Source: Bryocella elongata (GTDB taxonomy: Bacteria; Acidobacteriota; Terriglobia; Terriglobales; Acidobacteriaceae). Taken from it: a stretch of 64,000 bases of DNA. The stretch lies in the NCBI RefSeq assembly GCF_900108185.1, contig NZ_FNVA01000005.1, positions 186,001-250,000 of the forward strand, in the 5' to 3' direction. A program made the translations under genes and the position numbers. Shown here piece by piece: positions 48,720 through 62,957 of the stretch. Below the pieces are notes generated by a model. That model saw only the letters and a list, made by a program, of their open reading frames with translations. It ran no database searches and was not told the DNA's origin. Every line of letters starts with the position of its first letter. Within the stretch, counting starts at the first letter, position 1.

Positions 48720-49871
48720 TTATAGCGGCTCTCCGTTCACGGGCTTGGGCGTAATGGCCTCGTGCTCGTCTTCCGATTCGGTGCTGCCCTGCTTCAACGA
48801 CGGATCAGTCGGCTCAGTAGGCGCTGCGCTCTCCGGTTCGAAGACGAGGGAGAACGCTGGCATATCGAGTGATGTTTCAGCAACTGCAGCAGCAGACTCA
48901 AGAGCGGGCCCTGGGGCTGGTTCGTCCATGCCTGTGTGGAGGACAGGTTCGTAACCTGGCTCTTCTACGTAGGGTTCCGCGACGGCCGGCTCCGCGACGT
49001 CAGGCTCCGGCACAAAAGCCGGCACCGGTGGAGCGGGTTCGGGAGCCAACTCGAGGGCGTGTTCGATGGCCGGCTCGAAGTCATGGGTGACCGTCGGCTC
49101 AACCACGTTACCCTGCGGCGCAAACGCCGGCTCCTCTTCGAGGCCAAGGTATCGCACCAGGATGCAGGTGATGTTGTCGGCTCCGCCCATGGAGCGAGCC
49201 GTATCGATCAGGCGCTGGCAGGAAGCCTCGAGGCTGTCATTGCCGATGAGTTCGGTGAGGTGCTCCTTGTCGACGTAGCGGGTGAGGCCGTCGCTGGCGA
49301 GCAGGATCATGTCCCCGGGCGTCAGGTCACCGCCGAAGAAGTCCGGCTCAACGGTCGCAGCGGCGCCGATGGCCCGGGTGATGACCGTCTCCATCCCTTT
49401 GAGGTCGACGGTGTGGCGGTCGGCTTCGGAGACGGTGCCCATGCGGATCAGCTCATTGATGTAGGAGTGGTCCTGGGTGATCTGCAGGATCTTCCCGGCC
49501 TTGATGCGATAGGCGCGGCTGTCACCCACGTTGCCGACGAGCAGTCGGTTGTCGCGAACCACCAGGACGACCGTGGTGGTCCCCATGCCCTTGTGCTCGG
49601 GGAGCTGTCCGGCGGCCCATACGGCGTCGTTCGCGGCCCGAATCGCAGTGAACAGCCTGACGTCGACCGCCGTCGGCTCCGGCTGCGCGGCGAAGACCTC
49701 AATGAGGGTGCGGCATGCGATCGCGCTCGCGACTTCGCCCGCTGCCATGCCGCCCATACCGTCGCAGACGACATAGAGCTGGTTGGCGGGATCGTAGCCA
49801 AAATTATCTTCGTTGTTGGTGCGGACGCAGCCCATGTCACTAAGCGCCGCCACCTCAATCTTCGCTGGCAA
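48720..49871 (-). CDS. PP2C-type Ser/Thr phosphatase of the T6SS locus
   Basis: About 383 residues if started at TTG 49871, where GGAGG lies nine bases upstream; another TTG 13 codons earlier has no ribosome site. The PP2C metal and catalytic motifs are intact: SDMGCVRTNNEDNFGYD, VCDGMGGMAAGEVAS, LASDGLTRYVD and GGADNITCILVRY. The last 140 residues are Pro/Glu/Ala-rich and probably disordered. It is last in a tssK-tssL-tssM-phosphatase operon, as in systems where PppA counters a PpkA-like kinase in post-translational control; no kinase gene is in view. Confidence 0.9.
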   Translation of the reverse strand: MPAKIEVAALSDMGCVRTNNEDNFGYDPANQLYVVCDGMGGMAAGEVASAIACRTLIEVFAAQPEPTAVDVRLFTAIRAANDAVWAAGQLPEHKGMGTTTVVLVVRDNRLLVGNVGDSRAYRIKAGKILQITQDHSYINELIRMGTVSEADRHTVDLKGMETVITRAIGAAATVEPDFFGGDLTPGDMILLASDGLTRYVDKEHLTELIGNDSLEASCQRLIDTARSMGGADNITCILVRYLGLEEEPAFAPQGNVVEPTVTHDFEPAIEHALELAPEPAPPVPAFVPEPDVAEPAVAEPYVEEPGYEPVLHTGMDEPAPGPALESAAAVAETSLDMPAFSLVFEPESAAPTEPTDPSLKQGSTESEDEHEAITPKPVNGEPL

Positions 49872-49959
49872 TGTCAGACGCCTCCAAAATCCTGAGCTTG
49901 AGTCCTGCAAAAGGGATGTTCCAGAAGCCTCTGCGGTTGTTTCACCTTTGGCAATGGCA

Positions 49960-52900
49960 TTACTGGTTCACCTTGGTCGTGCAATGCATCTGCCGCATAA
50001 ACGCAGGGTTGAGCAACGGAGCGCCGGGGCCCGAAGCGTCAAGCTTATAGTCATACGGCGTTCCGGTTGAGTGACCGTTGATGGATTCCTGGAAGATGAG
50101 TTCCAACTGGGACTGCGTCGGATGCTTCGCCTCATACGCGAAGTGGAAGACCGACCAATTTCCCGGGTAGGTATGGGACTGGCCCTGTGGCCCGCTGATC
50201 TTCGTCGTCGAACCGGCTGACGAGACCCACGTGAAGGATTTCTGCCCCGGACCACTCAGGGCCGTGCCGTTGATCTCGATGACAGCGGGCGGTTGACCTG
50301 CGGCTGGCGGCTCCTCGGTGAGGCTGAAGACCAGCTGCGGCGTCGCCCCCGTGGCGAAGAGAGCGGTCGAAAGCTGCTGCGCGTGGTTCATGAAGGTGAC
50401 GAAGGCGGGGTTTAGGTTAGCGGTCGGATTCGCCGTGAACTGGCTGCCGATCAGGGTCAGGTTCGCGCTTTGGGTCTGGGCGTACTGTGCGAAGGCGCCG
50501 GAGCCGGGCTGGAAGATCCTGGCCACCTCGGACGGGTCCGCGTCGTCGTGCGCGTCGGGGTTGAAGGGGAACTTGTTGAGCAGCGGCGCCATCTGAGCGC
50601 AGAGCACCTTCGCTCCGCCGCCAGCAGCTGCGTCCTTCAACCCCTTTGCCGCTGCCAGGGCGGACTTGATGGGCGCCTGGAGCAGGGCTTCGGAGGTTGA
50701 GTCCATCGCTCCGGTCGGGTCGGGCGGGAAGGCGCTGCGGATGGTGTTCACCGCGGCTGAGGCGGCATTTGCAGCCTGGATCACCGGATCGGCCACCGCG
50801 GGTGTGATGGGCGTTCCAGCCTCCGGAATCGCGTTGTCGAGCGCTTCGAGCCCACCGGTGTAGGACGGCGGAAGGGCCAGGCTGTTGGGCGCAACGACCA
50901 TCTGCGGCGCCTGGAAGGGCTTGGAGAAGTCGTCGATGTTGACGGCCGTGTTGTCGGAGATGAGCTTGAAGACCTGCATCATCGGGGAGCCGGAGCCCGC
51001 GAGCACGTGCAGCTTCTTCTTGGCCTCGGGCAGGTCTCCGCCGGTGAGCACGTGGGCTGCCTTGAGGTAGCTTCGCCAGGCATTGAGGAAGTCATTGAGG
51101 TACTTTGGCGCCAGCTGCGCGCGCAGCGATGGGATATCGACTGTATTGGCTGCGCGGAAGCCGAGCACCCACTCCTCGCCGCTGGCGTAGGGTTCGGGGT
51201 GCTGGATGGCGTCCTGCATGAAGGTAAAGCCGCCCTTGGTGAAGGCGCCTTCCACGTCATAGCTGTCGCTCACGTACGCGACGTAGGCAGGGAACTGGCG
51301 GTTGAAGTTGACGCCCGGGAACTTGCGATCCGCAGCGGCCTTCATGCTCTGGTAGACCTGATCGCTGCCATCGGCGCCGCGCAGGAAGTTGCGGGCCTGG
51401 GTGACGGCGGACATGTGTGGTTCACCACCGAGGGTGGCCATGCAGGATTTGGGCTGCGGAAGAAGCGCAGCGTAGGTCTGGAACTGCGTGCGGGCGAGGT
51501 CGGTCTGCTCCTGCGAGACGCTGCGCGCGCCCACCCAGGCATGGACGAAGTCGTCGGCGACGTCGGGCGTTGCCTTCTCGGGATTCGACGTCGAGATGAG
51601 ATAGGCCCGCAGTGGACGGTAGGTGTCCGAGTAGGCACTGTTCTTGTCCCAGGCCGCAGGCAGCGCGCTCATCTGCGCGAGGATATTGGCCTGGGCCGGT
51701 TCCAGCAGCATGGCGCGGAGGCGCGCACCGTAAAGCGTGCATGCCTTCTCATAGAGCGGCTCGCTGCCGTAGAGACCGAAGCGATAGGCCAGCGGAGCTC
51801 CGTGGGAGTGGTAGTCGTCGATCTGCATGAAGACCTTGCGCAGCGCTTCGAGATGCTGCAGGTCGGCCACCGACGCGCCCTCGTGCTGGCCTGTCGGAGC
51901 AACCGCTGCGGCGGAGGCCTCCTTGAGTTTGTCATCCAGGCCCGAGTTATTGAGCCAGGACAAAGTCAGGGCAACGAAATAGAGGAAGAAGAATGCCGCG
52001 ACGGTCCCGATGAGAACCCGCTTGACGACGTTGACCTTGGTGCTGGCGCGGCTCGTGTCGAGCGCAGTGCGATCGCTGAGGATGACACGCGGCAGCAGGT
52101 GCGGCAGGAAGACCCACTGCGGCACGCGGCGGGTGACTCGCTGCACGGGTGTGGGGATTGCGGGGATCTGTGCTGCGTTGAAGCTGAAGACCCGCGTCGC
52201 GCCGGGATCGACCGCGGCAGCGGGCGCAGCGGCCTGGCTGACGGGACCCGAGTCTTCGATGACGCGGGGACGCACGCCGGAGAAGTAAAAGCCACGGAGG
52301 AACGGGTTTACGCCAAGCTGGCTGGGACGGCCCACCTCGACCAGGAAGTCGACGATGGGGCCGCGCAGCTTGCGCAGCTCGCGGGGGAACTCGTAGGCCT
52401 TGGCGGTTTGCTCGGGTGCACTGCCGCGGCCGAGAACCTCGAGGCGGAACTCGCCGAGGGAGTAGACGAGCTCATCGAAGCGAGAGGTGGTCTGCGCTGC
52501 CGCGCGCTCGCCGTAGAGGCCCGCATCGGCATCCACACGCGCGAGCATTGCGCCAAGCGGCTGGCGAACCTCTTCTTCGGTCAGGTTGGTCGCGTAGTCG
52601 GCGAACGAACCTACGGTATCGAGCTTGGTGAAGAGAACGTAGACGGGCAGCGAGATGCCGAGCGTCTGTGAGACCTTGCGAAGGCTCTCGCGGAGCTTCT
52701 GTCCCAGCACGCGGGCGGCATCCGGCGATTGTCCCGGTGCAAGATGCTCGAGGCTTACGCAGAGCAGCACGGCACGTGTGGGCTGCAGGCCACCCTTCGC
52801 GAGGGCGGCGCCGTACTTGTTGGGCTGCGTCAGGCGGACGAGCCTTGCCCAGAGGCTGGGCTGGTCCAGCAGTGCGCCGCCGGCATCGACGATGATGCCA

Positions 52901-53343
52901 TGGCCGGTGTACCAGATGTTCGCCAGCGGTGTGGGCGCGATCTGGCCATCGCGATACACCTCGCCCGCGAGCAGTTCGGGGTCGAGGCCGGACTGCACGA
53001 GCGTGTGCGTCTTGGCAGAGTTGGAGTCGCCGACAAGGTAGACGAGGGGAAGGCCGCTGAGCGACTTTCCGGTCGACGAGCCCTTGAGCTTATGCTCTGC
53101 AGCCTTGACCAGCGAATCGAGGCTGGAGGATTCGGCTGCGGTCAGATCGGAGGGAAGAGCGTCGCCTTCCATCTTCTTCTGGTAGATCACAATCGCCACC
53201 AGCGCAGCGATGCCGACGACGGACATCACCCCGACGAAGATGCCGAAGCGCATGCCTTCCAGGTGGGCAGCGAACGCAAACAGGACGATCAGCACCAGAT
53301 AAACGAGGAGGCAGGGAATTCCGATCAGCAGGGCCTTCTTCAT
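49960..53343 (-). CDS. tssM: Type VI secretion protein TssM (IcmF/VasK)
   Basis: 1127 residues, normal length. Two N-terminal membrane helices (residues 4-26 and 31-53), a cytoplasmic NTPase-like domain with Walker A GDSNSAKT at 105-112, a third helix near residue 440, then a long periplasmic helical domain and a C-terminal beta domain. The start overlaps the tssL stop by one base (TAATG). Forms the envelope-spanning ring with TssL; the outer-membrane lipoprotein TssJ was not found here. Confidence 0.95.
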   Translation of the reverse strand: MKKALLIGIPCLLVYLVLIVLFAFAAHLEGMRFGIFVGVMSVVGIAALVAIVIYQKKMEGDALPSDLTAAESSSLDSLVKAAEHKLKGSSTGKSLSGLPLVYLVGDSNSAKTHTLVQSGLDPELLAGEVYRDGQIAPTPLANIWYTGHGIIVDAGGALLDQPSLWARLVRLTQPNKYGAALAKGGLQPTRAVLLCVSLEHLAPGQSPDAARVLGQKLRESLRKVSQTLGISLPVYVLFTKLDTVGSFADYATNLTEEEVRQPLGAMLARVDADAGLYGERAAAQTTSRFDELVYSLGEFRLEVLGRGSAPEQTAKAYEFPRELRKLRGPIVDFLVEVGRPSQLGVNPFLRGFYFSGVRPRVIEDSGPVSQAAAPAAAVDPGATRVFSFNAAQIPAIPTPVQRVTRRVPQWVFLPHLLPRVILSDRTALDTSRASTKVNVVKRVLIGTVAAFFFLYFVALTLSWLNNSGLDDKLKEASAAAVAPTGQHEGASVADLQHLEALRKVFMQIDDYHSHGAPLAYRFGLYGSEPLYEKACTLYGARLRAMLLEPAQANILAQMSALPAAWDKNSAYSDTYRPLRAYLISTSNPEKATPDVADDFVHAWVGARSVSQEQTDLARTQFQTYAALLPQPKSCMATLGGEPHMSAVTQARNFLRGADGSDQVYQSMKAAADRKFPGVNFNRQFPAYVAYVSDSYDVEGAFTKGGFTFMQDAIQHPEPYASGEEWVLGFRAANTVDIPSLRAQLAPKYLNDFLNAWRSYLKAAHVLTGGDLPEAKKKLHVLAGSGSPMMQVFKLISDNTAVNIDDFSKPFQAPQMVVAPNSLALPPSYTGGLEALDNAIPEAGTPITPAVADPVIQAANAASAAVNTIRSAFPPDPTGAMDSTSEALLQAPIKSALAAAKGLKDAAAGGGAKVLCAQMAPLLNKFPFNPDAHDDADPSEVARIFQPGSGAFAQYAQTQSANLTLIGSQFTANPTANLNPAFVTFMNHAQQLSTALFATGATPQLVFSLTEEPPAAGQPPAVIEINGTALSGPGQKSFTWVSSAGSTTKISGPQGQSHTYPGNWSVFHFAYEAKHPTQSQLELIFQESINGHSTGTPYDYKLDASGPGAPLLNPAFMRQMHCTTKVNQ

Positions 53344-54098
53344 TACGCCCGTCCCTTCAGGCCGGAAGCCAGTGCTGCAACGGTGCGTTGCTGAAACGGC
53401 AGTGTGATGTGAAGCATCGTCACGTGAGCCAGGGTTGTATCGAGGATGAGTTTGTAACAGGCCAGGGCTACAAGTGCCAACACCGCAGTTGCGGCAGTGA
53501 TCACGAACAGCCTCCGGATCCAGGGATCCTTCTGCGAGACGGTGGGGACCTCAGGTGCTGGCGGAACGCGGCACAGGACCTCCGGCCCACGAATGCGCGC
53601 GATCTTCTCGCGGATCGCCCGCAGGATGTTCTGGATCTCGCCGCGGTCGTTGAAGGCGTAGCGACCGCGATAGCCGAGGAGGATGCAGATGGCGTGCAGC
53701 TCGAGCACGTCCGCGGTCTCGTTCGAGTCAGGGCCGTGCAGCAGCTCTTCGATGTGGCGGAAGAAGTACTCGCCGGCGAACTGGCTGCCGAACATCTCCT
53801 CCTGCACGGTGCGTTGCGACCAGGTGCTGAAGGTGGGGTCACCGGAGTTGAGGACGCTTTCATCCAGGAAGCCGACGATGGCGTAGAGCGCCATCTTGGA
53901 GGCCGGGTCGGAGTAGCCCTGGGCCCGCGCGTTGGTCGTTGCGGTGGAGATCATCTGCCGCACGTTGTTGCGGAAGGCAGCGACGTCGGCCACTCGTTGC
54001 GTGCGGAAGCGCACGCGCAGAATCACGGTGATGACATCCTGAAATTCGAAGGCAAGGCTGTTGGTCGGGAACTTCCGCGGTGATTCGGTAGCACTCAT
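53343..54098 (-). CDS. tssL: Type VI secretion protein TssL (IcmH/DotU)
   Basis: 251 residues from ATG 54098, one base after the tssK1 stop; the longer frame upstream lies inside tssK1. The DotU cytoplasmic helical domain shows ALYAIVGFLDESVLN, EMFGSQFAGEYFFRHIEELL and ELHAICILLGYRGRY. A single C-terminal membrane helix (about 212-234) anchors it. No peptidoglycan-binding extension. Partner of TssM in the inner membrane. Confidence 0.94.
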   Translation of the reverse strand: MSATESPRKFPTNSLAFEFQDVITVILRVRFRTQRVADVAAFRNNVRQMISTATTNARAQGYSDPASKMALYAIVGFLDESVLNSGDPTFSTWSQRTVQEEMFGSQFAGEYFFRHIEELLHGPDSNETADVLELHAICILLGYRGRYAFNDRGEIQNILRAIREKIARIRGPEVLCRVPPAPEVPTVSQKDPWIRRLFVITAATAVLALVALACYKLILDTTLAHVTMLHITLPFQQRTVAALASGLKGRA

Positions 54099-54099
54099 G

Positions 54100-55446
54100 C
54101 TATGCCTCGGTGATGATGGTGACCTCAAATACAGCTGCGCCAAGCTCGTTCGGCAGATAGACGCCGACCTGCCTGGTTGCGAGGATGTGCTGCCAGCATG
54201 GCCCGGCGCTGGCAATGCTGAAGTAATGCATGTCCGCCTGCGCGCTGATGGCCGAGGGCGGAACAGGAACATGACTCAATTCAAGGCCCGGCAATGCGCG
54301 TTGCACCAGCTTCACCACGCCCTCCGCCGAGCAGATCTTGAGCGAGGACGGAACCTGCCGGATCAACGTTGATTCGGAGAGATTGGAGCGAATCCCGAGG
54401 ATCCAGCGCGATCGGCGGAAGCTTCGCTCGTCAAGTACCGGCGCGGTAAAGATAGCAGGCTCGGTCTGCGTGAAGTTCAACGTGACCGTATTCGACGGTA
54501 CGACGACCTCAAGATTGCGGTAGATCAGCCTCTCCAGCCGCGAAAAGACCGCGTTGAGTTGCAGATGGTCGTATGCAGGAATTTCCGAGGGATCTGCGTC
54601 GAGTGCAAACGTGCACAGCGAACCGGCGAGGCTCGATAGAGCCAGATAGAGCTCTTCGGGATGCCCGTCCCGCGCACTTAGCTGGTTCCGCAAAGGCGGA
54701 ATCGCGGTGCACAGAGAGTGCAGAAACCAGTAACTCGCCACGTCGAGCGCTGACGAGCCTATCTCGAAGCTGCCGGTGCGCTTCTGTCCGGAGCGCGTGA
54801 TCAGGATTTTGGCTTCGATCGCCTCGATCATGTGCTGCACGCGAACCAGCAGATCTTCTACCGCACCGATACGGAGCAGCGGAGGGTAGAAGGTGGGATC
54901 GATCGCAAATCCGCCCTTGCCATCGCGGACCACACGCGCGATGGGAATCGAGATCAGGCTCTTGTCGATCTGGGAGGCTCCCAGCAGCAGCAGATTCTTG
55001 CGCGACAGCGTGATCCGATACTCTTCGGTGCTGATCGTCTCATCGCGAACTACCTTCTCCACCACCCCGAAGCGAGTGCGCTTGGTGTCAGACAGATCCG
55101 TCGTCATCTGCTGGTCGACACGCTGCGGTACAGCGATATGAAGGATCATGTCGCTGTCGATGGGAGTAAAGATCTCGTGAAGATTCAGCGGCTGCGGACG
55201 AAGGTCGCTATCTGGAATATCGAAGATAAGGCCATCGGGAAAGATGCCCGAACCGAAGCTCAGGACCGCGCTGCCATTGCGGATCAGATCCGTATCCAGG
55301 CCAAAACTCAACAGGCCCCACGGATGATTGTGGAGCTGTCCGTTGAGAAACCAGAGCAGGTCTTCGAAGTAGCGGCTTTGAAGTTGGAAGTGCTGCGGCG
55401 TGAGGTGCATGCCTTCCGACCACACGACGCGAGACAAGCATTTCAT
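54100..55446 (-). CDS. tssK: Type VI secretion baseplate protein TssK, copy 1
   Basis: 448 residues, standard TssK size. N-terminal VVWSEGMHLTPQHFQLQSRYFEDLL and C-terminal LKICSAEGVVKLVQRALPGLELSHVPVPPSAI blocks are typical. TssK trimers link the baseplate to TssL/TssM. First gene of the operon tssK-tssL-tssM-phosphatase. A second, divergent TssK lies at 57928-59289. Confidence 0.94.
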   Translation of the reverse strand: MKCLSRVVWSEGMHLTPQHFQLQSRYFEDLLWFLNGQLHNHPWGLLSFGLDTDLIRNGSAVLSFGSGIFPDGLIFDIPDSDLRPQPLNLHEIFTPIDSDMILHIAVPQRVDQQMTTDLSDTKRTRFGVVEKVVRDETISTEEYRITLSRKNLLLLGASQIDKSLISIPIARVVRDGKGGFAIDPTFYPPLLRIGAVEDLLVRVQHMIEAIEAKILITRSGQKRTGSFEIGSSALDVASYWFLHSLCTAIPPLRNQLSARDGHPEELYLALSSLAGSLCTFALDADPSEIPAYDHLQLNAVFSRLERLIYRNLEVVVPSNTVTLNFTQTEPAIFTAPVLDERSFRRSRWILGIRSNLSESTLIRQVPSSLKICSAEGVVKLVQRALPGLELSHVPVPPSAISAQADMHYFSIASAGPCWQHILATRQVGVYLPNELGAAVFEVTIITEA

Positions 55447-55686: not shown

Positions 55687-57861
55687 ATGAAGGACAGCAG
55701 CATGGAGGAACGGCCAGATCAGCATGGAGCGGGCTCTCCGTCCTCGGGCGTGACGGACCTGTTCCGCGTCATGAGCGAAGAGAAGCCGCCCGCAGATCCA
55801 TTTGCCGCGGAAGCCTTCAGTCCTGGAGCAGGTTCAGCCCCCGCTCCGGCGCCAACGCCCGACCCGAACCAGTTCCAGAACTTCACGCAACTGTTAAGGA
55901 CCATCGAGAGCAAGAGTCCATCGACTCCGCCAGCGCCTGTCTTCGCGCAGCCTTCCGCTGCAACTCCTGTACCTCCGCCGCCTATGGCTTCAGCTGCTCC
56001 GGTCGCCTCATCCACACCGGCAGCCGATTCCTTCACGCAGCTGCTCCGCACGATCAATACGCCGGCGGCTCCTGCCGCTCCGCCCATCGCTATAGAGCCC
56101 GCGATCGCGCCGCCCGTGGCACAGAGCCAGCCTGCTACGGCGTATCCTCCGGCTCCGCCTGCAGCTCCGGCTCCCGCAGCTCCATCGCCCGGTGGGTACC
56201 AGGGATTCACGCAGTTACTCCGCACCCTGGATAGCCCGGCGCCCGCAGCCGCTACACCGGCAGCGCCTGTACCGGTAGTCCCTGCGGCTCCAGCCTTCGT
56301 GCCCGCGCCTCCTCCTTACAGCGGTGCACCGGTGGTGCCGGCGGTTCCATTTGCTACCGAACCGCCTCCTCCGGCTGCTAAGGCCGAAGCCCTGGGCTTT
56401 ACGCAATTGCTGCGGACCCTCGATTCTGCGCCGAAGTCGTCTACCGGCGCGTTCAAGGCGACCGCCCCGATCGAACCTTCGCAATCAAGCAGCGTCAATG
56501 CGAGCAGCATGACGCAGCTGCTGGGAGCGCTCGACAAGGCTGTCGCCCCTCCAGCCGTGCGTCCGCTCCCGGTCACGGGTTCGCATCCTCTGGTCGCGCA
56601 GGAGCCAGTTGCGGCTGCGCCAGTCCCTCCACCAGCGCCTATGCCTGCGCCGCCAGCATTCACCCCGGCAGCTTCCATTCCAGCCGCACCGTTGGCATCA
56701 CCACCTCCAGCTGCCGCACCTCCGAGTACGCCTGCCAGCTCCAGCTTTACGCAGCTCTTCAATGCAGGGGATTTTGCCGCACCCTCGGCCCGCGCCAGTA
56801 GTCAGGCCGACGCGTTTCCTCCCATTGCTCCAGCAGCGCCGTCAGGGGCAGCGTTTCCGGCGCCGGTGCAGCGCGCTGCGCCTGCCGACGATCCGTTCGC
56901 ATCCAGGCCCGCGTCTTCGCCTGCCGCTGGAAGTCTCACGCAGCTTCTGAACGTGATGGGGCAGCCGGGAAGTGCGCCGTCGCAAGGCTTTCCCGCGCCG
57001 GTTTCGAACCCCGCACCTCCGCCCCCGGCATCCACTGGCGGGTCGGGGCTGACGCAGTTGCTCAGCACTCTGGGCTCGCAATCAGCGCCGTCGCAGCCGT
57101 CGTACCCGCCGCAGCAGTCATACACGCCAGCTCCAACGCCGTATACGCCGCCTGTCGCATCCTCGAGTGCCTCGCCAACGGGATCGGGAGGCCTGACTCA
57201 GATCCTGCGCACGCTTGAGTCAAAGCAGCCGAGTTCTGCGCCTCCTCCTGCACCGGCCGCTCCGGCATACTCCGCACCTCCGGCTCCTATGCCGTCTGCC
57301 GCAGCGCCCTCCTGGCCAGGGCCAACTGCGCCGCAATCGCCCGCTGCGCCGACTTCCTCGTCTTTCGCTGCGGATTCGACGTCGGTCTTCCGCGCACCGG
57401 CCGGTGGTCCGTCTATGCCTCCTCCTTCCGCACCTCCAGCAGCGGCTGGTCCGAGTGAGTTCACCCAGATCATCAACATGTCGGCCTTGCGTGAGAGCCA
57501 GCGCACGGGCAACACGGGACAGACGCCGAGGCCCCCGGCGGCGAGTGCGGCCGGAGGTGCGTCGCCCGTCATGCCTGCGATGCCGACGATGCCCTCCATG
57601 CCAACGATGCCTGCTATGCCCACGATGCCTTCGGGCGGTGGTGGTGGCATGCAGATGCCGCAGGCGCCACAGATGCCTCAAGCCCCGCAGATGCCGATGT
57701 ACCAGATGCCGCAGATGCAGATGCCACAACCACCGGCGCCGCCAACCCCGGCCGCAGCCCCTCCTTCGGCGATGCAGAAGATGCTGCCGATCCTGCTCAT
57801 CATCGTGATTGTGCTGCTGGTTGCGATCCTGCTCGCGGTGGTTCTGATGGTGAAGAAGTAA
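55687..57861 (+). CDS. Tail-anchored Pro/Ala-rich protein with repeated FTQLL motifs
   Basis: 724 residues, no recognised family. Almost all is low-complexity Pro/Ala/Ser. Embedded are about ten copies of [GSNE]-[FLM]-T-Q-[LI]-[LFI]-x-x (NFTQLLRT, SFTQLLRT, GFTQLLRT twice, SMTQLLGA, SFTQLFNA, SLTQLLNV, GLTQLLST, GLTQILRT, EFTQIINM) spaced about 40-100 residues, plus two degenerate copies (GVTDLFRV near 21, STSVFRA). Then a Met/Pro/Gln-rich stretch (MPTMPSM, QMPQAPQMP) and a single C-terminal membrane helix with MVKK tail. Divergent from tssK1, convergent with tssK2. I infer a cytoplasmic multivalent scaffold anchored to the inner membrane. ATG 55702 is an alternative start. Confidence 0.8.
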   Translation: MKDSSMEERPDQHGAGSPSSGVTDLFRVMSEEKPPADPFAAEAFSPGAGSAPAPAPTPDPNQFQNFTQLLRTIESKSPSTPPAPVFAQPSAATPVPPPPMASAAPVASSTPAADSFTQLLRTINTPAAPAAPPIAIEPAIAPPVAQSQPATAYPPAPPAAPAPAAPSPGGYQGFTQLLRTLDSPAPAAATPAAPVPVVPAAPAFVPAPPPYSGAPVVPAVPFATEPPPPAAKAEALGFTQLLRTLDSAPKSSTGAFKATAPIEPSQSSSVNASSMTQLLGALDKAVAPPAVRPLPVTGSHPLVAQEPVAAAPVPPPAPMPAPPAFTPAASIPAAPLASPPPAAAPPSTPASSSFTQLFNAGDFAAPSARASSQADAFPPIAPAAPSGAAFPAPVQRAAPADDPFASRPASSPAAGSLTQLLNVMGQPGSAPSQGFPAPVSNPAPPPPASTGGSGLTQLLSTLGSQSAPSQPSYPPQQSYTPAPTPYTPPVASSSASPTGSGGLTQILRTLESKQPSSAPPPAPAAPAYSAPPAPMPSAAAPSWPGPTAPQSPAAPTSSSFAADSTSVFRAPAGGPSMPPPSAPPAAAGPSEFTQIINMSALRESQRTGNTGQTPRPPAASAAGGASPVMPAMPTMPSMPTMPAMPTMPSGGGGGMQMPQAPQMPQAPQMPMYQMPQMQMPQPPAPPTPAAAPPSAMQKMLPILLIIVIVLLVAILLAVVLMVKK

Positions 57862-57877: not shown

Positions 57878-57917
57878 GAAACGGAGAAGGCGCGCCACGG
57901 CGCGCCTTCTCCGTTTC
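57878..57917. terminator. Bidirectional 17-bp terminator hairpin
   Basis: Arms 57878-57894 and 57901-57917 are perfect complements (GAAACGGAGAAGGCGCG), between the convergent repeat-protein and tssK2 genes; TTTC follows on the plus strand. Confidence 0.88.
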
Positions 57918-57927
57918 TGGTGGCAGA

Positions 57928-59289
57928 CTAGTTCGCGCCGGCGCTGGGAAGCAGCACGATCAGCTCCATCTCCGGCCGGAGGAAGTCCTGCGGCGCGTAG
58001 ACCGCGAAGTTTCTGGCGCGCTGGATCGACTCCCACACAGGACCGCTCTGCTCCATTGCAAAGTATTGATGGCCGACCTTCAGCGCGATTCCGCGCGGAG
58101 GGCGTTGCACATGCGAGAGCTTGAGGCCTGGAAGCGCCTGCCGTACGAGGTGCTCGACGTGCGTCGCGGAGCACACCTTCATCAGCTTCGGTACGCGATC
58201 GATGATGTCGGGCTCACGCATGTCCGCTGAGACCGCAAGATACAACCGCGTGTTGTGCAGGTACTCATCTTTGTCGATAGAGGTCGCGTAGATGGAGTCG
58301 CGCAGAAACTTGAGCTGCAGTGCAACGAAGTTGGTCGGCACCACAGTGTCGAGCAGGCTGCGGATGATCTCGTCGAGCCGTATGAAACCTGGACCAGGTT
58401 CCTCGTGCACGTAGACCGGGAAGTCGCGCGGCACGAGCGTGTTCGAGAACGTCGCCAGGGAGCCAGCCAGGTCTGCCATCTGGGTAAACAGCTGCGCCGG
58501 CGAAATACGTTCCGACTCCTGCAGGTGCCGGAAGCCGGGGAGATGCGTGTTCACGGTATAGAGCAGCCAGAACTCCGCAATATCGGAGCTGGAGAAGTCA
58601 GCCAGCCTCTGATTTTTCTGCCGGCGATTGCCCGACAATCTTGTGCTGCGTGCCACTAGAATCTCGACGAGTCCGCGGAGTATATTCTCCAGCAGATTAC
58701 TGGCGCGCACATTGATGAGCGTCGGAACGAAGCTGGGATCAAGAGCAAAGCTCCCCGTGTCCGAGCGGAGCACGCGCGCGCAGGGCATGACGACGAATCC
58801 GTCCTGCGGCTGACCCTCAGCGATGAGCTTTAGATTTTTCTGCGCGACCCGCACCGGCTTTTCGCGCATATCTCCGCTGTTCTCGTCTCGAAGCATCTGC
58901 TGCTGCGCGGAGAAGCGGGTACTGGGCCCAGGAGCCATCGCCACATTAACACCGCCCGGACGATACTCCGGTATCGCGAGATAGAACGTGCAGGACTTCT
59001 GGCCGGGCTCAAAGCATTTTGCCAAAGCACGACCGTCGGGAATAGGATCAGCGCCGGGAAATTCAAAGGGAAGCGAATCGCCAAATACACCGCTTGCTTC
59101 GGAGAGTGCGAGATTACCTTCGGAGAGCGCCTTGGCATCGACACGCAGCTGGGAGAAACCCCACGCATTTTCAATCAGAGAGTCGAGATAGAAACGCACC
59201 GATTCTTCAACAAATCGCTCCTGGGCCTGCAGGTGCTGCGGCGAGAGAAACGTTCCTTTTGACCAGACGACGGGCTGTAACTGTCGCAT
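57928..59289 (-). CDS. TssK paralogue, copy 2
   Basis: 453 residues. The TssK signature is clear at both ends (VVWSKGTFLSPQHLQAQERF; LMKVCSATHVEHLVRQALPGLKLSHVQRPPRGI), but the sequence is well diverged from copy 1, for example in the shell domain around residues 60-130. It is a single-gene transcript converging on the repeat protein and divergent from tssB. It could form mixed or alternative baseplates, or bind a different membrane partner. Confidence 0.9.
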   Translation of the reverse strand: MRQLQPVVWSKGTFLSPQHLQAQERFVEESVRFYLDSLIENAWGFSQLRVDAKALSEGNLALSEASGVFGDSLPFEFPGADPIPDGRALAKCFEPGQKSCTFYLAIPEYRPGGVNVAMAPGPSTRFSAQQQMLRDENSGDMREKPVRVAQKNLKLIAEGQPQDGFVVMPCARVLRSDTGSFALDPSFVPTLINVRASNLLENILRGLVEILVARSTRLSGNRRQKNQRLADFSSSDIAEFWLLYTVNTHLPGFRHLQESERISPAQLFTQMADLAGSLATFSNTLVPRDFPVYVHEEPGPGFIRLDEIIRSLLDTVVPTNFVALQLKFLRDSIYATSIDKDEYLHNTRLYLAVSADMREPDIIDRVPKLMKVCSATHVEHLVRQALPGLKLSHVQRPPRGIALKVGHQYFAMEQSGPVWESIQRARNFAVYAPQDFLRPEMELIVLLPSAGAN

Positions 59290-59624: not shown

Positions 59625-60143
59625 ATGGCCAACACGCAGCATAAGCTGGACCGGGTGCGTTCACCTCGCGTTCAAATTACCTACGACGTAGAAGTGGGCT
59701 CCGCCATCGAGATGAAGGAATTGCCCTTCGTGATGGGAGTTCTCGGTGATCTGACAGGACAGCCGGAGAAGCCTCTGGCTGCATTGAAGGATCGTAAGTT
59801 CGTCGAGATCAATCCCGACAACTTTGACCAGGTGTTGAAGGGCATGCAGCCTCATCTGGCGTACTCGGTGGCGAACAAACTCAGCGATGATCCGAACGCT
59901 GGCCAGGTTAAGGTCGATCTGCGTTTCGAGAGCATGGAAGACTTCTCTCCGGAGAACGTGGCGAAGCAGGTGAAGCCGCTGAAGGATCTTCTGGATCTCC
60001 GCACGCGCCTCTCGGATCTGCGCGGTTCGCTGCAGGGCAACGACAAGCTCGACGAGATGTTGTTCGACGCCGTCTCCAACACGGAGTCCCGCAACAAGCT
60101 GCGGTCTGAACTTGGAACCACAGGGGAGGATGGCAATGAGTAA
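59625..60143 (+). CDS. tssB: Type VI secretion sheath small subunit TssB (VipA)
   Basis: 172 residues, standard length. VQITYDVEVGSAIEMKELPFVMGVLGDLTG, FVEINPDNFDQVLKGMQP and MEDFSPENVAKQVKPLKDLLDLR are the TssB hallmarks. Its end overlaps the tssC start (ATGAGTAA). Forms the contractile sheath with TssC. Confidence 0.97.
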   Translation: MANTQHKLDRVRSPRVQITYDVEVGSAIEMKELPFVMGVLGDLTGQPEKPLAALKDRKFVEINPDNFDQVLKGMQPHLAYSVANKLSDDPNAGQVKVDLRFESMEDFSPENVAKQVKPLKDLLDLRTRLSDLRGSLQGNDKLDEMLFDAVSNTESRNKLRSELGTTGEDGNE

Positions 60144-61632
60144 TACAGCCAGCCCGGCAGCTGCCGCCGCAGTAGCCGCCGAACAGACACAAGAGTCGTC
60201 GACCTCGCTGCTTGATTCGATCGTCGCGACGGGCCGCTTTGATCGCGACACTGCATCGCTGGAGCGTGGCAAGAATCTGGTCAAGGAGTTCGTGGCCCAG
60301 GTTCTCGATGGCCACATGTCCCTGTCCAAGGATGCCGAAGTCTCCATCACGGCGCGCATTGCTCAGATCGATCGGCTGATTTCCCTGCAGCTGAACGAGG
60401 TCATTCATCACCCTGCCTTCCAGAAGCTGGAAGGAACGTGGCGTGGCATCAAGTACCTGATGGACCAGAGCGAAACCAGCGACATGTTGAAGATCAAGGT
60501 CCTCAACGTTTCGAAGAAGGAGCTTCTGCGCGACCTGCAGAAGGCGTCGGAGTTCGACCAGAGCGCTCTGTTCAAAAAGGCTTACGAGGAAGAGTTCGGC
60601 GTGTTCGGTGGAGCTCCGTTCGCGGCGCTGGTCGGAGACTACGAGTTTGGACGCGGCCCGGAAGATATCGAGCTGCTGGAGAAGGTTGCCCAGGTTGCCT
60701 CTGCGGCGCATGCGCCATTCCTCTCGGCTGCTTCGGCGGAGATGATGAACCTGGCGGACTACACCCAGCTGGGTGCGCCTCGCGATATGAGCAAGGTCTT
60801 CGACAGCACAGAGTATGCGAAGTGGAAGAGCTTCCGGAATTCGGATGACTCGCGTTACGTGGCTCTTACTCTCCCTCACGTGCTCATGCGTGATCCGTAC
60901 GGCAAGGCGACGCGTCCCGTGGAAGCTTTCGACTTCGAAGAAGACGTCGACGGCCGCGATCACTCCAAGTACCTGTGGGGAAATGCTGCCTATGCTCTCG
61001 GCGCGAAGTTGACCACCTCCTTCGCCAAGTCCGGATGGTGCTCTTCCATTCGTGGCGTGGAAGGTGGCGGTCTGGTTGAGGGTCTTACGGCCCACAACTT
61101 CAAGACCGATGACGGTGACATTGCCCTCAAATGCCCGACGGAGGTTTCGATCACCGACCGGCGCGAGAAGGAACTTGCCGACCAGGGCTTTGTTCCTCTG
61201 GTGCATTGCAAGGGCACGGACTACGCTGCATTCTTCAGCGTGCAGACCGTGAACCGGCCCAAGGTCTACGACGACGACAAGGCCAATGCCAATGCAAAGC
61301 TGTCGGCGCAGTTGCCCTACATCCTGGCGATGAGCCGGTTTGCGCACTATCTCAAGGCGATGATGCGTGACAAGCTTGGCAGCGCGATGAGCCGCAGCCA
61401 GGCTGAGGATTACCTGAACACCTGGGTCCGGCAGTATGTGCTGGCCGACGACAATGCGTCGCAGTCCGCGAAGGCGGAGCGTCCGTTGCGCGAGGCTCGC
61501 ATCGAGGTCATGGAGGTGCCCGGCAACGCCGGTGCCCTGCGTGCTGTGGCCTTCATGCGTCCGCACTTCCAGCTGGATGAACTCACCGTTTCTCTCCGCC
61601 TGGTTGCGGAGCTTCCGGCCCCGGCGAAGTAA
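60136..61632 (+). CDS. tssC: Type VI secretion sheath large subunit TssC (VipB)
   Basis: 498 residues from ATG 60136 (GGAGG upstream, overlapping tssB). Conserved blocks: DRLISLQLNEVIHHPAFQKLEGTWRGIKYLM, FGAPFAALVGDYEFG-like (VFGGAPFAALVGDYEFG), FRNSDDSRYVALTLPHVLMRDPYG, FAHYLKAMMRDKLGSAMSR, and the C-terminal FQLDELTVSLRLVAELP. Complete. Confidence 0.97.
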   Translation: MSNTASPAAAAAVAAEQTQESSTSLLDSIVATGRFDRDTASLERGKNLVKEFVAQVLDGHMSLSKDAEVSITARIAQIDRLISLQLNEVIHHPAFQKLEGTWRGIKYLMDQSETSDMLKIKVLNVSKKELLRDLQKASEFDQSALFKKAYEEEFGVFGGAPFAALVGDYEFGRGPEDIELLEKVAQVASAAHAPFLSAASAEMMNLADYTQLGAPRDMSKVFDSTEYAKWKSFRNSDDSRYVALTLPHVLMRDPYGKATRPVEAFDFEEDVDGRDHSKYLWGNAAYALGAKLTTSFAKSGWCSSIRGVEGGGLVEGLTAHNFKTDDGDIALKCPTEVSITDRREKELADQGFVPLVHCKGTDYAAFFSVQTVNRPKVYDDDKANANAKLSAQLPYILAMSRFAHYLKAMMRDKLGSAMSRSQAEDYLNTWVRQYVLADDNASQSAKAERPLREARIEVMEVPGNAGALRAVAFMRPHFQLDELTVSLRLVAELPAPAK

Positions 61633-61708
61633 GTCACGGGTCGGGCCAAGGGAAGCGAAACTCATAACGTGAACCCTGCCCATGCGCAGGCGAAAAAGGA
61701 GATGCATC

Positions 61709-62185
61709 ATGGCGGTAGATTTCTTCCTCAAACTGGATGGAATTGATGGCGAGTCGGCGGACGATAAGCACCCGAAAGAGATCACGGTCATGTCCTTTAG
61801 CTGGGGCGGATCGCAGGTGACTTCCGTTTCCGGCTCGGGCGGTTCGGGTGCGGGTAAAGTGAGCCTGGCTGACCTCAGCATCATGAAGAACTATGACGCG
61901 GCGAGCACCCCGCTGTTCAAGGCGATGTGTCTGGGCACGCATATCAAGACTGGCGTGTTGACCGCGGTCAAGTCCGGCGCCAACGGAGCTCCCTTCCTCC
62001 AGGTAAATCTGGGCGAGTTGTTTGTCACCAGCATTCAGATCAGCGGCTCCAGCGAAATCCCGATGGAATCGGTCTCCTTCAGCTACAACACGATCAAGAT
62101 GCAGTACTGGCAGCAGGACGAGACGGGCAAGCTCGCGGCTAAGTCGCCGGTGACTTACGATCTGAAGGCGAACAAGGTCAGCTAA
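61709..62185 (+). CDS. hcp: Hcp family T6SS tube protein
   Basis: 158 residues from ATG 61709 with GGAG eight bases upstream. VDFFLKLDGIDGESADDKHPKEITVMSFSWG, the HIKTGVLT-type strand and VTSIQISGSSEIPMESVSFSYNTIKMQY are typical Hcp1-type signatures. Forms hexameric rings of the inner tube and is secreted. It sits in the sheath operon, so it is the structural Hcp. Confidence 0.96.
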   Translation: MAVDFFLKLDGIDGESADDKHPKEITVMSFSWGGSQVTSVSGSGGSGAGKVSLADLSIMKNYDAASTPLFKAMCLGTHIKTGVLTAVKSGANGAPFLQVNLGELFVTSIQISGSSEIPMESVSFSYNTIKMQYWQQDETGKLAAKSPVTYDLKANKVS

Positions 62186-62192
62186 GAGGTTC

Positions 62193-62957
62193 ATGACTCC
62201 ACAGGACCTTTACCGTGCTGGGGAGTTAGACCAGGCAATCAAGGCGCTTGGCGAAGAGCTGCGGTCCGCGCCGCTCGACGCCAAGCGCCGTACTTTCCTG
62301 TTCGAACTTCTGTGCTTTGCTGGCGAGTACGACCGCGCTGAGAAGCAACTGGCCGTGCTCGAAAGTCAAAACCCCAAGACGCAGATGGCTTACCTGGTGT
62401 ATCGGAGTGCGCTGCATGCGGAGCGCACGCGCCAGGAGATGTTCCAGACCGGTGTCCTGCCGGCGTCGGTCGCCAAGATCGCCGCCCAGGGTGGAACCTG
62501 GAACGATGAGCCATTTGAATCCTTGCAGGACGCCGATGCCCGTATTGGCGACCATCTGGAGGTGTTTATTGCGGGAAGCTACACCTGGATCCCGACGAGT
62601 TATGTGCGTCGACTCGAAATCGAGGCTCCCGTAGCGTTGCGCGACCTGATGTGGGCCCGTGCGCGCATCGAAGCAAGCCCTGAGTTTCGGCTTCAGGATC
62701 TTGGTGAAATTCTGCTGCCTGTGCTCGCTCCGCTGAGCTGGACCTCAAGTGATAACTCGGTACGCCTGGGACGGACGAGTGTATGGGAAGACCAGCCGGA
62801 TGGCAGTGAACGCCTCTTTGGGCAGAAGATGCTGCTGGTGGATGGAGAAGAGATTCCGATACTCGAGTTCCGCAGCCTGGTGTGGAATTCGCCCAAGGGG
62901 TCCGAGGACGAGTCGGAAGCAAATCCTGTAGGAGAGCCTGAAGATGCCGCTTCGTGA
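62193..62957 (+). CDS. tagJ: T6SS accessory protein TagJ (ImpE)
   Basis: 254 residues. The N-terminal LYRAGELDQAIKALGEELRSAPLDAKRRTFLFELLCFAGEYDRAEKQL is a TPR-like ImpE motif; ARIGDHLEVFIAGSYTWIPTSYVRRLEIEAP and LVDGEEIPILEFRSL follow. TagJ binds the N-terminal helix of some TssB proteins and affects sheath recycling by ClpV. It overlaps tssA by 14 bases. Confidence 0.9.
   Translation: MTPQDLYRAGELDQAIKALGEELRSAPLDAKRRTFLFELLCFAGEYDRAEKQLAVLESQNPKTQMAYLVYRSALHAERTRQEMFQTGVLPASVAKIAAQGGTWNDEPFESLQDADARIGDHLEVFIAGSYTWIPTSYVRRLEIEAPVALRDLMWARARIEASPEFRLQDLGEILLPVLAPLSWTSSDNSVRLGRTSVWEDQPDGSERLFGQKMLLVDGEEIPILEFRSLVWNSPKGSEDESEANPVGEPEDAAS

Follow-up and report, generated by a model that had tools for sequence, protein, structure and literature searches.

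The window analysed here is a stretch of 64,000 nucleotides from Bryocella elongata (contig NZ_FNVA01000005.1, positions 186,001 to 250,000), in which a gene for an unusual repeat-bearing protein sits between two tssK paralogues, inside a complete type VI secretion system (T6SS) locus. The protein, referred to here as the array protein, strings together ten short motifs of the FTQLL type and ends in a hydrophobic helix, and is a member of an undescribed accessory family of acidobacterial T6SSs. Its neighbours are the two TssK genes and the genes for TssL, TssM, Hcp, ImpE, a PP2C phosphatase, TssB and TssC. On one side, tssK1 is divergent from the array gene and heads the operon tssK1-tssL-tssM-PP2C; the PP2C open reading frame (ORF) starts 49 bp past tssM, and PP2C would be the last gene of this operon. 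On the other side lie tssB, tssC, hcp and tagJ, followed (mostly past the end of the window) by tssA, E, F, G, H, VgrG and PAAR. Both the placement of the array gene within a T6SS locus and the presence of a PP2C gene in the adjacent operon had been claimed in a prediction made from the letters alone (the original prediction), and both hold.

Anatomy of the array protein

The array gene starts with an ATG at 55687, runs on the forward strand to a stop codon at 57861, and encodes 724 amino acids, of which 22.5% are Pro, 19.8% Ala and 11.3% Ser. The motif [FLM]TQ[LI][LIF] occurs ten times, starting at residues 66, 116, 174, 238, 275, 354, 417, 455, 503 and 592, with irregular spacings of 37-89 residues. 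In 20,000 shuffles of the protein the mean count was 0.002 and the maximum 1, confirming the array of ten near-identical motifs that had been proposed. Synonymous codons differ between the copies, which are therefore not fresh DNA duplications. Two further T-x-[ILV]-F sites are present, VTDLF (residues 22-26) and STSVF (residues 564-568); the latter presumably resembles an OdhI-type (GarA/OdhI-like) phospho-acceptor segment, and a paper search with a longer string found nothing. The C-terminal membrane-type helix of the original prediction is equally evident, in that the highest hydropathy of any 19-residue window (3.88) falls at residues 702-720, four residues before the end of the protein, as compared with 1.33 for the best window starting before residue 640. 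When the B. elongata genome was scanned with a loose DNA pattern for F-T-[QRH], six of the 80 matches fell in the array gene, with no comparable cluster elsewhere (45 matches for the reversed control).

An undescribed family at T6SS loci

The window protein has no match in Pfam (E ≤ 0.1), NCBIfam (E ≤ 0.1) or PHROGs (E ≤ 0.01), in keeping with the original prediction, which knew of no described family with this layout. Of the features that mark the family defined here, the window protein has the repeated F-T-x-[LM]-[FL] motifs in a Pro-rich chain, the hydrophobic helix near its C-terminus and the gene placement divergent from tssK1. A full-length protein search in 61 genomes recovered, besides the protein itself, only two congeneric relatives, both in T6SS loci. 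Using an alignment of these three, 37 database proteins were found among 7995 candidates scored, the candidates being those with the most words in common; two of the 37 are labelled with their source (an Acidobacteriota bacterium in one case, Terracidiphilus in the other), and no function is annotated for any of them.

Sixty stretches around TssK genes of relatives in the same class were examined. An array gene is present in 30 of the 39 stretches with a K1-type TssK, and in all 30 it is divergent from tssK1. The 30 comprise 24 found by a strict rule and six by a relaxed rule (L045, L065, L072, L077, L079 and L092), the array of L079 having degenerate motifs. Seven of the remaining nine K1 stretches come from genomes with an array gene in another stretch examined; for G100 and G236, also among the nine, no array gene was found, by profile either, the two weak profile matches in G236 (E 0.002 and 0.003) lying inside kinase-like ORFs. 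In five of the seven genomes (G127, G155, G218, G268 and G291) the array gene lies by tssK2, and in the other two (G184 and G211) away from both tssK genes. A separate scan of named genomes with GP[SG]EFTR[IV][LI] yielded 10 loci, one of which (Granulicella paludicola DSM 22464) is the G016 locus again, and the array gene is divergent from tssK1 in 10 of 10.

Across these relatives the motif is kept while the linkers vary, as had been predicted. The consensus of 313 Thr sites in 40 members is P-G-E-F-T-[RQ]-[ML]-F-Q; the number of copies per member ranges from 1 to 15, with a median of 8, and spacing is irregular, an arrangement that would be expected if valency is what matters. A hydrophobic stretch is found within the last 45 residues of 43 of 46 members, a set that includes near relatives (for instance, in genus g80). 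The proteins of L049, L061, L084 and L085 are cut by the contig end, and in L054 and L135 the C-terminus is without the hydrophobic helix.

Some loci depart from the usual arrangement. A short second copy in G292 (L168, 1255-1872) encodes 206 residues with an N-terminal start resembling the kinase N-lobe described below, three motifs and a C-terminal helix, and is possibly a minimal form of the array protein. In L080 and L083 (genus g63), tssK2 and tssK1 are side by side with no array gene, and the pair in L080 is separated by a small, apparently STAS-like ORF. L163 (520-2145, G187) has a degenerate array gene divergent from tssL-tssM, in a short locus where no tssK was found.

Linkage to the T6SS across genomes

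A match to the TssK family was found in 75 of 250 sampled genomes of the class; 63 of them, with E below 1e-20, were counted as T6SS genomes, and the 12 with weaker matches (E above 1e-20) were left out of that count. A DNA pattern for G-E-F-T-[RQH]-[LIM]-F, which covers one form of the family and gives no hit for the FTQLL form of the window, is found in 41 of the 250 genomes, as compared with none for the reversed control. Of the pattern-positive genomes, 38 of 41 are among the 63 T6SS genomes, the other three having single hits, and the 30 genomes hit at least twice all belong to the 63 (Fisher p 1.4e-24 for co-occurrence, uncorrected for kinship). An array is present in 52 of the 63 T6SS genomes, 49 by pattern or ORF with the addition of G164, G187 and G172 (C-terminal fragment). 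The outcome the original prediction named as fatal to it, a protein missing from other T6SS loci and common in genomes without a T6SS, is thus the opposite of what was found. Among 396 genomes sampled across the phylum, some of them class members, a single hit occurs in 11 and two hits in none; at this depth of sampling, the GEFT form of the array therefore seems confined to the class.

The threonine of the motif

Threonine is strongly favoured at one position of the motif. At F-x-polar-[LIMVF]-[FL] sites in 40 members it is found 220 times, as compared with 3 for Ser and 17 for other residues; outside the motifs of these proteins Ser exceeds Thr (2163 vs 1270). For the form F-x-x-[LIM]-F in 46 members, Thr accounts for 199 of 221 sites, the others being Glu (5), Asn (5), Asp (4), Ser (3), Met (2), Ala (2) and Leu (1). 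This tally left out the last 45 residues, and the first 105 residues of the locus proteins; about five chance matches are expected in it, and the five Asn all come from one protein, that of L132. In the 37 database proteins, Thr is found at 112 of 112 such sites. A broader form of the motif gives T 308, E 6, S 5, D 5, M 4 and A 1 in the 46 members, and T 384, P 1 and N 1 in the database proteins.

Where Thr is replaced, Asp/Glu is the most frequent substitute and Ser is rare. Asp and Glu make up nine of the 22 non-Thr residues, in eight proteins (p 2e-5 against composition), and a change from a Thr codon to one for Asp or Glu needs more than one base change, which suggests that a negative charge can replace the Thr. 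Such an acidic stand-in is as expected if the Thr is phosphorylated.

The five Asn-bearing copies of L132 (8687-11314) mostly have the regular form [SE][ML]T-x-[EQ]-F-N-x-[LM]-F. When ORFs of L004-L009, L040-L099 and L130-L149 with less than 10% Pro and fewer than three matches were scanned for [GPS][ESGD]FT[RQKEM][LMI][FL], two rows only were returned, both from the G261 array protein.

Kinase and phosphatase neighbours, and a kinase-like domain

The gene immediately downstream of tssM encodes a PP2C or a Ser/Thr kinase in 21 of 43 other loci, and a PP2C in the window. The nine loci with PP2C all belong to the family of the window (f1), and the 12 with a kinase all lie outside it.

In addition, 33 of the 46 members, including most of those outside the family of the window, carry an N-terminal domain resembling the N-lobe of protein kinases; the window protein has no such domain. 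In a model of the L054 domain (L054:5875-6192; pLDDT 87.9) the beta1-5/alphaC arrangement is recognizable, and all 50 structural matches listed, from a second look at 1000 chains picked by Foldseek, are kinase folds. The 23 domains that built the profile were aligned (alignment A2), and a profile search of the PDB with this alignment gave protein kinases in 48 of 54 rows (best E 0.0028); in Pfam, none of the 23 matched a kinase family. Every row of A2 (23/23) has His at the column read as the VAIK Lys position, and there is no C-lobe. The L054 model and alignment A2 together point to a kinase N-lobe fold for this domain of the relatives.

Other features of the locus

The features of the window are collected in Table 1. 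Between the convergent stop codons of the array gene and tssK2 lies a perfect 18-bp inverted repeat with a 2-base loop (57879-57916) that is probably a two-way terminator; a terminator scan listed none at this position, because it requires a loop of 3-8 bases. A 658-residue ORF on the reverse strand (59908-61884) is antisense to tssB and tssC and has no Pfam match. A phospho-site in the N-terminal extension of TssL was considered and dropped, the extension being most likely a start-site artefact. Further along the locus, a PAAR protein (L004:10761-11615) matches Bacterial toxin 46 at its C-terminus (E 1e-6), and the small ORF after it is, at a guess from its position, a possible immunity gene.

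Table 1. Features of the array gene and its T6SS neighbours (positions in the window)
Feature	Coordinates	Strand	Remark
PP2C Ser/Thr phosphatase	48720..49910	-	would be last gene of tssK1 operon
tssM	49960..53343	-	
tssL ORF	53343..54272	-	true start probably further inside (many relatives 227-250 aa)
tssK1	54100..55446	-	divergent neighbour of array gene
Array gene	55687..57861	+	Pro/Ala-rich 724-aa protein, ten FTQLL motifs, C-terminal hydrophobic helix; orthologues found
Degenerate N-terminal motif VTDLF	55750..55764	+	position of G-A-T-x-[IA]-F in relatives
Motif 1, FTQLL	55882..55896	+	residues 66-70
Motif 2, FTQLL	56032..56046	+	
Motif 3, FTQLL	56206..56220	+	
Motif 4, FTQLL	56398..56412	+	
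Motif 5, MTQLL	56509..56523	+	
Motif 6, FTQLF	56746..56760	+	
Motif 7, LTQLL	56935..56949	+	
Motif 8, LTQLL	57049..57063	+	
Motif 9, LTQIL	57193..57207	+	
STSVF	57376..57390	+	extra T-x-V-F site
Motif 10, FTQII	57460..57474	+	within most conserved block, GPSEFTxI..S..R
Met/Gln/Pro-rich stalk	57571..57756	+	read off sequence; limits approximate
C-terminal hydrophobic helix	57790..57846	+	residues 702-720
tssK2	57928..59289	-	convergent neighbour of array gene
tssB	59625..60143	+	
tssC ORF	60112..61632	+	true start probably slightly downstream
hcp	61682..62185	+	
tagJ/impE	62193..62957	+	

A proposed multivalent scaffold and its alternatives

The anatomy of the array protein is suggestive of a single-pass inner-membrane protein with a long tail that would lie on the cytosolic side and, judging by its composition, is probably disordered. 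The tail repeats one putative hydrophobic docking motif, (E/S/G)-F-T-(Q/R)-(L/M)-(F/L), and all copies may fit into one and the same pocket on a T6SS protein, such that one string would keep many partners near the membrane complex and raise their local concentration for assembly. The candidate partners are TssK1, TssL and TssM, all encoded by the divergent operon, or else the locus kinase. The near-invariant Thr probably gains and loses a phosphate through a T6SS-associated Ser/Thr kinase and PP2C, which would set the number of active sites. Of the two roles named in the original prediction, clustering of baseplates at the membrane and a tunable phospho-switch, the sequence favours neither. 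The chances are about even that the array protein is a T6SS-dedicated, tail-anchored, multivalent scaffold whose Thr is perhaps phosphorylated. A more detailed version, unlikely in all its parts, is that assembly of the acidobacterial T6SS is set by a valency switch. Here, a membrane-tethered string would offer up to about fifteen Thr docking sites, the number charged would be set by the locus kinase and PP2C, and the reader would be a non-FHA pocket in a T6SS component that takes phospho-Thr or Asp/Glu; in most lineages, the kinase N-lobe without a C-lobe on the string would recruit the kinase.

Several observations weigh against this scaffold. In 11 of the 63 T6SS genomes neither the pattern nor two profiles found an array. 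Several of these genomes are highly fragmented, but eight reach 90% completeness or more, which means that the protein is not universal for the T6SS; in G180 and G187 the arrays are degenerate. The array gene lies away from both tssK genes in G184 and G211, and away from tssK genes in G070 also; in G211 and G184 (L130, 4874-7141; L131, 8767-10056) it adjoins glycosyltransferase-like genes, with the T6SS elsewhere in the genome. No kinase or phosphatase gene was found by BLAST directly after tssM in 22 of 43 loci, in some cases for the stretch ending there. The hydrophobic frame is kept in some copies with Asn, Ala or Met in place of Thr, which is therefore not required in every copy, and no acidic replacement occurs in the 37 database proteins. 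The array counts depend on regular expressions, and genomes that share ancestry do not count as independent cases.

The original prediction suggested FHA domains as readers of the motif. In such a phospho-scaffold an FHA domain would bind each phosphorylated Thr; in the genome of the window this would be an FHA-DUF4123 protein of the locus, which would bring an effector chaperone to the machine. The strong preference for Thr over Ser, the hydrophobic +3 residue and the PP2C gene next door are what such a phospho-scaffold would lead one to expect, and PMC3953482 describes FHA binding to a phospho-Thr of a T6SS membrane protein. An FHA domain occurs somewhere in 41 of the 44 genomes examined. 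B. elongata has one FHA domain, joined to DUF4123 in a protein of the T6SS locus (L004:12145-13110, equivalent to C14:261145-262110), just after VgrG/PAAR, beside a large Ser/Thr kinase gene on the opposite strand (C14:262266), such that FHA reading is possible locally. As a general rule the claim is not supported, because G016 and G261 (100% and 99% complete) have the array with no match to PF00498 at E ≤ 10 and no significant match to PF16697, and an FHA reader is hardly general barring a very divergent one missed by both profiles; G233 has no PF00498 match and one sub-cut-off match to PF16697. The FHA-DUF4123 protein has no match at E ≤ 1 in G010 or G016. Nine motifs have Asp or Glu for Thr, a substitution that FHA domains are not expected to accept. 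On balance, an FHA-read scaffold is improbable. Taken by itself, the FHA-DUF4123 protein reads as effector-chaperone-like with a phospho-Thr reader, and a similar fusion is found in G294 (L142).

The persistence of the hydrophobic frame without Thr, and the loci with no kinase or phosphatase after tssM, would also fit an array that docks independently of phosphorylation, where F-x-x-[LM]-F is a plain hydrophobic short linear motif, the Thr is structural (for instance, a helix cap), and the neighbouring kinase and phosphatase serve to regulate other processes. Helix capping suits Thr, Ser, Asp and Asn alike. However, a Thr:Ser ratio of 220:3 is more selective than expected of capping, and Glu, a poor cap, is as common as Asn at the site; this explanation is possible, if somewhat doubtful. 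The least probable of the readings weighed gives the array a role mainly in kinase control. As a multivalent substrate or pseudosubstrate it would draw in the Ser/Thr kinase of the T6SS and modulate it, and the N-lobe-like domain of most members would dock on the N-lobe of that kinase. The frequency of that domain, its kinase-fold matches and the kinase genes 3' of tssM outside f1 speak for such a role, but the window type has no such domain, Pfam matches none of the 23 domains to a kinase, the docking is putative, and both the type of neighbour and the presence of the domain track phylogeny, so the link may be one of ancestry alone. Mimicry of TssG, in which the motif would copy the loops that seat TssK, was rejected on sequence. 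The foot loops of TssG are described as an LG-repeat pattern (PMC8406304, PMC6300606), and seven acidobacterial TssG proteins have, by eye, no FTQLL-like loop.

Relation to known systems

Where and when cells build a T6SS is an open question, and the work considered here is in Proteobacteria. Soil Acidobacteria carry an undescribed, apparently membrane-anchored and floppy protein beside their T6SS genes that is probably a scaffold gathering parts of the machine. As a conserved and separable multivalent tether it offers a motif that can be used as a synthetic peptide to find the partner, a natural valency series (1-15 copies) suited to testing dose dependence, and a pattern of Thr/Asp/Glu exchange that makes the question of phosphorylation directly testable. 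The strings GEFTRMF, EFTRMFQ, GEFTQMF, SFTQMFQ and GFTQLLRTL occur in no paper searched (subscription papers and preprints being outside the scope), and no paper describing the family was found, as judged by title or the start of the abstract.

The elements of the FHA/phospho-Thr pathway of the T6SS (PpkA-PppA-Fha) are represented in or near the window locus by PP2C, a Ser/Thr kinase and an FHA protein, although FHA is not present wherever the array is. In the case of Agrobacterium tumefaciens, PMC3953482 describes a phospho-Thr docking site on a T6SS membrane protein (TssL-pThr14, bound by Fha), with kinase and phosphatase in the system, and the array protein would be similar if it is phosphorylated. 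The differences are that a single site on the core protein TssL contrasts with many on a separate protein, and that the array family does not in general have the FHA reader that A. tumefaciens needs. The TssL of enteroaggregative E. coli is likewise a T6SS protein with a C-terminal membrane anchor (PMC3426401). TssL is a DotU-family protein, and the window locus has a TssL of its own. The N-terminal domain of most members shares the beta1-5/alphaC arrangement with the N-lobe of Hanks-type kinases (CASK, CHK1 and MARK2), from which it differs in its invariant His, in the lack of a C-lobe and in its absence from the window protein.

Two further systems bear on the proposed function. In Acidovorax citrulli, PpkA and Fha, a kinase and an FHA protein, are described in PMC12607579 as condensate scaffolds, that is, membrane-linked accessory proteins coupled to Thr phosphorylation that gather T6SS parts. 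Unlike these, the window protein is a string of motifs with neither a kinase nor an FHA domain (no Pfam match), and is therefore not a PpkA or Fha protein. CisA, a protein of the Streptomyces contractile injection system, has a largely unstructured N-terminal region, one membrane span and a link to a contractile system (PMC12237407). The comparison, one of described layouts only, shows a conserved domain C-terminal to the span in CisA, whereas the window protein ends with its helix. By analogy with the A. citrulli PpkA/Fha assemblies or with CisA, the array protein would gather a contractile system at the membrane.

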